Source: Planctomycetota bacterium
GTDB lineage: Bacteria > Planctomycetota > Planctomycetia > Gemmatales > Gemmataceae
DNA: 64,000 bases
Direction: 5' to 3'
Assembly (NCBI GenBank): GCA_016191165.1
Contig: JACPPF010000047.1
Span: forward strand, 1-64,000
Shown here: positions 33,292 to 57,917 of the stretch, in pieces
How the letters are laid out: every line of letters begins with the position of its first letter
How positions within the stretch are numbered: position 1 is the stretch's first letter
The notes under the pieces: generated by a model
The model's database searches: none
What the model saw: only the letters and a program-made list of their open reading frames with translations
Told to the model about the DNA's origin: nothing
Translations under genes and position numbers: made by a program

Positions 33292-33450
33292 GGTTGCACC
33301 CAGGTCTTAGCGGGAATTTGAAGATTTTATATCATCTTCGCGAGACAACGTATAAGAAATGGAAAACGCCTGGACCGCGTTTAGCGGCCCCAGTGAAGCG
33401 CGAATCGCTCGACGCTTCTTCGCGAACGCTAAACGAAGAGAAAAATCGCC

Positions 33451-34737
33451 ATGACCATCATTTTGCTCGGCACCCTCGACACAAAAGGCGTCGAATACCA
33501 GTTCGTGCGCGACCTGCTGAAGGCGCAAGGTCTCGAAACGCTCGTCATCGACGCCGGCGTCATCGGACCGCCGCATCTTACGCCGGACATCACGCGCGAC
33601 CAAATCTTCGCCGCCGCCGGTACAACCCTCGACGCCGTCGTCAAGGCTAACGACCGCGGCCAGGCCGTCGAACTCGCGGCGAAGGGGGCAGCCAAGCTTG
33701 TCGCCGATTTGCACGCTCAGGGCAAGGTGGACGGCATCCTCGGACTGGGTGGCTCCGCGGGAACCACCATCGCCACCGCCGCGATGCGAGCTCTCCCCTT
33801 CGGCTTGCCCAAACTCATGGTCTCCACGCTAGCGAGCGGGCAGGTCAAATCGTTCGTCGGCGTGCGCGACATCATGATGATGCACTCCGTCGTCGATATT
33901 TCGGGGATCAATCGAATCACCCGGGTTGTGTTGACGAACGCCGCCAACGCGATGGCGGGTATGGCGCCCTTTCTCCCCTCTCCCCTTGTGGGAGAGGGGT
34001 TGGGGGTGAGGGGTGGGAGTATGCCAAACACCCTCACCCCCAACCCCTCTCCCGGAGGGAGAGGGGAGAAGGGCGACAAACCCCTCATCGCAGCCACCAT
34101 GTTCGGCGTCACGACCCCCTGCGTCGAGGCGGCACGCAAGCAAATCGAATGCGCCGGCTACGAGGTCCTCGTTTTTCACGCGACTGGTACCGGCGGTATG
34201 ACCATGGAATCGTTCATCAAGGACGGCATGATCGAAGGCGTGCTCGATATCACCACCACGGAGTTAGCGGACGAACTGGTCGGCGGCATCCTCTCGGCCG
34301 GCAAGGACCGCCTCACCGCGGCGGCGATTCGCGGCGTGCCACAGGTGGTCTCCGTCGGCGCGCTCGACATGGTCAACTTCGGTCCACGCGACACCGTGCC
34401 CGAGAAATTCCAGGACCGAAAGTTCTACATCCACAACTCGAACGTGACCTTGATGCGCACGACACCCGCGGAAAACGACCGGCTTGGCAAGGAGATCGCC
34501 GAGAAGGCCAGCGCCGCGACCGGGCCGACGGCGCTCCTCCTACCGCTACGAGGTGTCTCGGCGATTGATCGCGACGGGCAGCCGTTCTGGTGGCCCGAGG
34601 CGGATCAGGCGTTGTTTCAAAGCATCCGCAACTGGGTGGGGCCGCAAGTGAAAGTGATCGAACTGGATTTGCACATCAACGATCCCGAATTCGCGCGGAT
34701 TGCCGCGGAGACTCTTCTTGCGATGGTGCGGGCATGA
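33451..34737 (+). CDS. Tm-1-like ATP-binding protein (UPF0261) with an in-frame repeat insertion
   Basis: 428 residues, slightly longer than usual. The N-terminus TIILLGTLDTKGVEYQFVRDLL, the glycine-rich ILGLGGSAGTTIATAAM and PLIAATMFGVTTPCV identify the UPF0261/Tm-1-like family. Between MAGMAP and DKPLIAATMFG lies an extra stretch of about 33 residues (LVGEGLGVRGG, LTPNPSPGGRGE) encoded by a palindromic repeat at 33972-34069, without loss of frame. The rest of the protein appears intact, ending EFARIAAETLLAMVRA. It is probably still functional. The start at 33451 gives the family N-terminus. Confidence 0.85.
   Translation: MTIILLGTLDTKGVEYQFVRDLLKAQGLETLVIDAGVIGPPHLTPDITRDQIFAAAGTTLDAVVKANDRGQAVELAAKGAAKLVADLHAQGKVDGILGLGGSAGTTIATAAMRALPFGLPKLMVSTLASGQVKSFVGVRDIMMMHSVVDISGINRITRVVLTNAANAMAGMAPFLPSPLVGEGLGVRGGSMPNTLTPNPSPGGRGEKGDKPLIAATMFGVTTPCVEAARKQIECAGYEVLVFHATGTGGMTMESFIKDGMIEGVLDITTTELADELVGGILSAGKDRLTAAAIRGVPQVVSVGALDMVNFGPRDTVPEKFQDRKFYIHNSNVTLMRTTPAENDRLGKEIAEKASAATGPTALLLPLRGVSAIDRDGQPFWWPEADQALFQSIRNWVGPQVKVIELDLHINDPEFARIAAETLLAMVRA
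33972..34069. repeat. Palindromic element, family C, inside a coding sequence
   Basis: The sequence CTCCCCTCTCCC...GGGAGAGGGGTTGGGGGTGAGGG and its complement CCCTCACCCCCAACCCCTCTCCC...GGGAGAGGGGAG form a long inverted repeat with a loop of about 17 bases. It is wholly inside the Tm-1-like gene. A similar element at 57825-57910 is intergenic. Confidence 0.9.
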
Positions 34738-57413: not shown

Positions 57414-57456
57414 ACGACGCGCCAGCCGGGCCTGCGCATCGCGGCGTGAGCGCTTG
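57414..57456 (+). repeat. Direct repeat, copy 2
   Basis: This is the second copy of the oxoamine synthase 3' end, 41 of 43 bases identical to 56137-56179, with TGA instead of TAA as the stop. It is followed by GCTTGCGGTTTG...CAAACCACAAGCGGC, an imperfect palindrome of the sequence between this gene end and the ACP gene. Confidence 0.9.
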
Positions 57457-57514
57457 CGGTTTGGCGCTTGCATGGCGGCGTGCGAGCGACAAACCACAAG
57501 CGGCAAATCGGGGG

Positions 57515-57824: not shown

Positions 57825-57910
57825 CTCCCCTCTCCCTCTGGGAGAGGGGCTGGGGGGTGAGGGCCGGGGTTGTACCCTCACCCCCGACCCCTCTCCCAGA
57901 GGGAGAGGGA
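57825..57910. repeat. Palindromic element, family C, intergenic copy
   Basis: The same palindrome as 33972-34069 (CTCCCCTCTCCC, GGGAGAGGGGC, CCCTCACCCCC, GACCCCTCTCCC). It begins 35 bases from the ACP start and ends eight bases before the DUF6134 stop. Confidence 0.9.
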
Positions 57911-57917
57911 AGGCGGC

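Follow-up and report, generated by a model that had tools for sequence, protein, structure and literature searches.

An in-frame palindromic repeat in a Tm-1-like gene of a Gemmataceae planctomycete and the occupation of the same protein linker by unrelated repeat families

How does a long inverted repeat come to lie inside an otherwise complete gene, and what becomes of it there? The question is raised by a Tm-1-like (UPF0261) gene in a freshwater Gemmataceae planctomycete, an identification drawn from congener loci that carry the labels Gemmataceae and Planctomycetota. The 64,000-nucleotide window analyzed here comes from a draft assembly of 183 contigs and contains 13 strong palindromes (57451-57502 is one), which belong to several families and mostly lie outside called genes. 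A first-pass annotation had placed one repeat, here family C, wholly inside the gene with neither frameshift nor stop, which the uninterrupted reading frame and the Pfam domains on both sides bear out (Table 1); a related intergenic copy, reported at 57825-57910, is real, at 57825-57912. The two arms of the insert (39 nt, 85% complementary, spacer of 18 nt) give a single-stranded DNA fold of -55.8 kcal/mol compared to a shuffle mean of -24.4 (z = -10.9), and the hairpin core pattern has one match in the window and none in 100 shuffles. Rfam returned only sub-threshold matches of the microRNA-precursor type for the hairpin, and no real family.

Table 1. Features of the Tm-1-like locus and of the second family C doublet (positions in the window).
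Feature	Position	Strand	Basis
Tm-1-like/UPF0261 gene, insert host	33451..34737	+	One uninterrupted ORF, 428 codons/aa; Pfam; fold match
UPF0261 N-terminal domain, residues 2-172, 5' of insert	33454..33966	+	Pfam; pLDDT mostly >90
Family C doublet, 96 nt, two inverted 39-nt hairpin units, ~32 residues	33974..34069	+	Inverted-repeat, profile, fold
Family C unit 1, hairpin plus tail	33974..34012	+	Profile match
Family C unit 2, inverted	34031..34069	-	Profile match
UPF0261_C domain, residues 210-425, 3' of insert	34078..34725	+	Pfam; pLDDT >90
Imperfect GTTTAGC/GCTAAAC-tipped palindrome, directly upstream of Tm-1-like gene	33378..33435	.	
TTGCGGTTTCGC-type palindrome, directly 3' of Tm-1-like stop codon	34742..34791	.	
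Second family C doublet of the window, intergenic	57825..57912	.	Inverted-repeat, DNA search, profile

Homologues of the Tm-1-like gene are present in 35 of 41 related genomes, the fold of the protein matches plant Tm-1 structures, and by Pfam the insert falls exactly between both UPF0261 domains. An AlphaFold2 model built with 51 homologues has a mean pLDDT of 91.8, with values below 50 only at residues 181-206 (33991-34068), within the insert; the model thus predicts a disordered link, with an intact domain on either side. The peptide encoded by the insert includes GEGLGVRGGSMPN, and the open frame and intact domains suggest that the insert is translated. From the conserved GM to ATMFGVTT the linker has 43 codons, compared to mostly 15-24 in homologues outside the genus, which span many phyla and lack the insert, as the first-pass annotation had expected of UPF0261 relatives. 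Judging by these lengths, the gene seems to have lost some of its native linker or to have had it replaced. The earlier figure of about 33 added residues is thus right for the element itself, which encodes 32-33 codons, and too high for the net lengthening. Two Tm-1 linkers outside the genus (L022:2195-2223 and L092:3543-3564) hold short tandem repeats instead (AGTCAGAAGTC; CAATTGACAATTG) that give QKSEVRSQKSEV and QIDNCKLTIDN; dispersed copies of them were not seen among the stretches examined. In a related planctomycete, the matched Tm-1-like frame (L107:2446-3698) has three stops, possibly an assembly frameshift or a decayed copy.

Family C is dispersed through its own genome, where a DNA search returned 94 matches, spread over roughly 40 places, and a profile made from both arms found 57 places in 0.8 Mb. 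This census covers the window and 40 stretches picked for family C or transposase matches, with genes called by a home-made hexamer gene caller. The unit is 39 nt long (TCTCCCCTCTCCCTCTGGGAGAGGGGTCGGGGGTGAGGG), carries CCCTCACCCCC and has a nearly invariant tail, GGGGGTGAGGG. Twenty of the 57 places are inverted doublets with their tails inward, 33 are single and four are tandem. Mapping the copies, as the first-pass annotation had advised, put 33 of the 57 places wholly inside predicted genes. By our reading, 24 of the 31 host genes tested have Pfam domains that flank the insert or extend across it, among them PrmC, MutL, FBPase, KdpA, Lhr and XPD-like helicases, asparaginase, an AcrB-like protein and a TPP enzyme. 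These results support the annotation's comparison to palindromic elements inserted in frame in Rickettsia: the insert is a member of a dispersed family, often in frame in domain-supported genes. Family C also has a larger in-gene share among strong palindromes than the rest (7/19 versus 28/273; P = 0.003). Single units lie in genes more often than doublets do (24/33 versus 6/20; P = 0.004), and 14 of the 20 doublets are intergenic. Median profile scores are 37.2 bits for single places and 38.1 for multi-unit ones (P = 0.17). A putative subfamily with a CCTTGY loop showed no significant preference for genes (P = 0.25).

The 37 family C units that could be assigned a frame use all five stop-free frames (12, 11, 6, 5 and 3 units) and never the frame containing TGA, an outcome with a probability of ~0.001 under random use of six frames. 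Because genes cut by the TGA frame would escape the gene caller too, this pattern shows tolerance rather than preference. Across families, in-gene frequency was not predictable from the number of open frames (rho = -0.12; P = 0.75).

A feature of the locus beyond the first-pass annotation is that in sister species the Tm-1 linker is filled mostly by unrelated repeat families. An inserted repeat is present in all six congeners, or 7/7 with the genome of the window (G000), and none is empty. The family C doublet of G000 corresponds to a single, decayed family C unit in G001, with little structure left (z = -1.0), a GCCGCTTGCGGC palindrome in G002, GTTTAGCCGCTCGCCTTTGGCGAGCG in G003 and G005, and CGTTTAGCG..CGCTAAACG in G004 and G006, which have left flank and tips in common and whose family assignment comes mainly from the tips. 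The annotation had named one extra peptide encoded by nonpalindromic DNA in many lineages as the pattern that would speak against an insertion; the peptides of the congeners differ and are encoded by different repeats. In a tree of the Tm-1 gene minus its linker (a single gene, with moderate support), G004, G006 and G002, which have other types, fall between G001 and G000, both with family C. No fewer than three to four gains or replacements are needed. Such event counts are conservative, and the congeners are draft metagenome assemblies. The linkers of G003 and G005 differ at 1 of 99 nt; this low divergence was considered as a special feature and dismissed, other windows of the gene being equally low. 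Just 3' of the gene, the palindrome family also differs between the close species G003 and G005 (L018:1874-1934; L019, just past the stop codon).

Reuse of a site is seen in other genes as well. In MutL, the site after the ATPase domain holds family C in the own genome, a AAAGCCCAGGG type in G006 and a long GGGAGA type in G001; G005 is empty, and MutL of G002 has no insert as far as its prematurely ending contig reads. The site between the helicase domains of Lhr holds family C in the own genome and GGCGAGGCTCCCGCC, GAGCCTGAAGCG and GGGGGAGAATGG types in G006, G002 and G001, respectively, with G003 and G005 empty. The XPD-like gene has family C in the own genome, G002 and G006, and four congeners are empty. 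Asparaginase has it in the own genome and G001 (empty in 4/5 congeners), PrmC in the own genome only (empty in 5/5), and FBPase has a doublet that is absent from 2/2 congeners, the difference being exactly 96 nt. For KdpA, no congener orthologue was found. Summed over seven genes, the site is occupied in 14 of 33 congener orthologues, and in at least eight of these the family is a different one. Strong palindromes occur at 284 per Mb, compared to none in 127 kb of shuffled sequence; those within genes amount to one per ~8300 codons and hence to 0.003 per 25-codon site, and the chance expectation is ~0.1 occupied among the 33. The sites were chosen for occupancy in the own genome, a choice that leaves the congener counts unaffected. 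The examined contigs of G002, G003, G004, G005 and G006 have no strong palindrome within a gene other than that of the Tm-1 linker. The G001 inserts in MutL and Lhr (L214 and L266) are both long GGGGGAGAATGGGAG-type palindromes, of which no copies were found in the stretches examined.

About ten hairpin families besides family C occur in the genus, and all seven members encode Y1_Tnp genes. The linker type of G003/G005 lies on both sides of a Y1_Tnp gene in G003 (L186); in the own genome it neighbors one (L202), and in G005 a same-tipped relative surrounds one (L187). The linker type of G002 adjoins Y1_Tnp genes in three congeners, on both sides in G001 (L190) and also in G003 (L182) and G004 (L181), and the Lhr insert of G002 matches palindromes on both sides of L189 in the same genome. 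As the same palindromes flank Y1_Tnp genes, two linker families and one helicase insert are tied to RAYT-type transposases. No family C unit flanked a RAYT gene in the 63 RAYT loci scanned, a subset of those in 13 genomes. The motif GGGGWSAS, from TIR-flanked transposases, fits the family C tail and was rejected as a clue to a cognate enzyme: it occurs on both sides of one RAYT locus only, within an unrelated palindrome.

Among known systems, Rickettsia palindromic elements (RPEs; Ogata et al. 2000, 2002) form several dispersed families that lie in frame in genes and are read as extra peptide (PMC10969869). The Tm-1 insert resembles them by description as an in-frame palindrome that homologues lack, set in a gene that is otherwise complete. 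It differs in phylum, in its smaller unit (39 nt single, ~96 nt doublet) and in that unrelated families sit here in the same protein loop of sister species. Intragenic GTAG/CGTC REPs lie inside ORFs as singles and dimers and add 20-30 residues, and Planctomycetes are among REP hosts (Di Nocera et al. 2013, PMC3733652). In recB of two Xanthomonas species, different REPs occupy approximately the same site, while other genes have different sites (PMC3733652). Family C lacks a terminal GTAG or CGTC tag, its consensus ending in the tail given above, and reuse here spans Tm-1, MutL and Lhr, up to seven species and several unrelated families. REPINs are dispersed elements, described as extragenic, in which two inverted REP units form one long hairpin and doublets are better conserved than singlets (Bertels and Rainey 2011, PMC3116915). 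Family C is like a REPIN in its inverted doublets with tails inward (20/57 places), and other hairpin families here flank Y1 transposase genes as REPINs do. In contrast, family C is not mainly extragenic (33/57 in genes, mostly as single units), its doublet units are not better conserved than singlets, and it has no flanking RAYT in the 63 loci. With tag, RAYT neighbor, extragenic bias and doublet conservation all lacking, it is REPIN-like and not a REPIN.

We consider it probable that family C is a REP/REPIN-like mobile hairpin that entered the Tm-1-like gene at its flexible interdomain linker and is translated there as ~32 disordered residues, in-frame copies surviving selection in permissive loops that unrelated families refill. 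IS200/IS605 HUH transposases act on single-stranded DNA. From this biology and the RAYT link, HUH/Y1 (RAYT-type) transposases would spread such hairpins as single strands. The hairpins would land widely, selection would act as a filter that purges gene-breaking insertions, and the survivors within genes would be those in frame, stop-free and in floppy or permissive loops. Because permissive loops would be few, unrelated families would fill the same ones repeatedly. What sits least well with this proposal is the lack of a RAYT beside family C in the loci scanned, the conservation of its single units at the level of multi-unit ones, unlike decaying REPIN remnants, and the failure of frame openness to bear on in-gene frequency.

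Complete occupancy of the Tm-1 linker could also reflect one ancient hairpin in the genus ancestor that was later overwritten by others, with the resident attracting or recombining with the next (hairpin-targeted insertion). The shared left flank and tips of G004 and G006 would fit such a history, as would the family swap between G003 and G005 3' of the gene, but nested remnants were not seen, and in MutL, Lhr and the XPD-like gene occupied and empty congeners stand side by side, so that a resident hairpin is not needed; we regard this history as rather unlikely. A hairpin kept because it is useful, either by slowing the ribosome at a domain boundary as an mRNA structure or by altering the protein through a longer linker, would explain why an exceptionally stable hairpin lies exactly at that boundary and why every congener retains some repeat there. 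Families, lengths and peptides nevertheless vary freely among congeners, most homologues are insert-free, the G001 copy is nearly structureless and the G003/G005 linker divergence, though low, is ordinary for the gene, which makes a selected function quite improbable. An assembly or binning artefact of repeats would come to mind with a fragmented draft host and metagenome-assembled congeners, yet the unique coding flanks, the 57 consistent copies and the orthologous sites that are occupied, or cleanly empty, in independent assemblies leave it scarcely credible. Within the mobile-hairpin proposal, we tentatively raise the possibility, which we would not yet favor, that some loops are genus-wide shared landing sites for unrelated hairpins, with transposases favoring resident hairpins or particular sites. 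The 7/7 occupancy of Tm-1 suggests that a resident hairpin attracts the next; the empty sisters of Lhr and MutL do not need that. If true, small transposons would continuously supply core proteins, MutL, Lhr and the Tm-1-like protein among them, with family-swapping linker sequence.

In-frame coding palindromes have so far been seen as a Rickettsia speciality plus scattered REP cases. In-frame hairpin insertion itself is a known kind of event (Rickettsia RPEs, REP-decorated ORFs); what is new is that unrelated families recurrently reuse one loop, for which recB is the one precedent. A planctomycete genus that has many coding-hairpin families, and in which orthologous sites can be found empty, filled or filled by another family, opens to test how often selfish hairpins turn into protein sequence and how far site choice by the transposase or selection on the protein decides where they remain. 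For annotators, recurrent LTPNPSPxGRGE or SPLxGEGxGVRG peptides are predicted to be translated repeats and not protein motifs; no mention of the "LTPNPSP" peptide was found in the literature searched. In-frame reading extends to a further palindrome family, GTAGGTCAGGCTTTCCAGCCTGAC (L204:1565-1615, L052:650-727, L066:33-95 and L076:11516-11578), which gives recurrent VGQAFQPD...VRLESLTY-type peptides and adjoins RAYT genes in L012 and L171.
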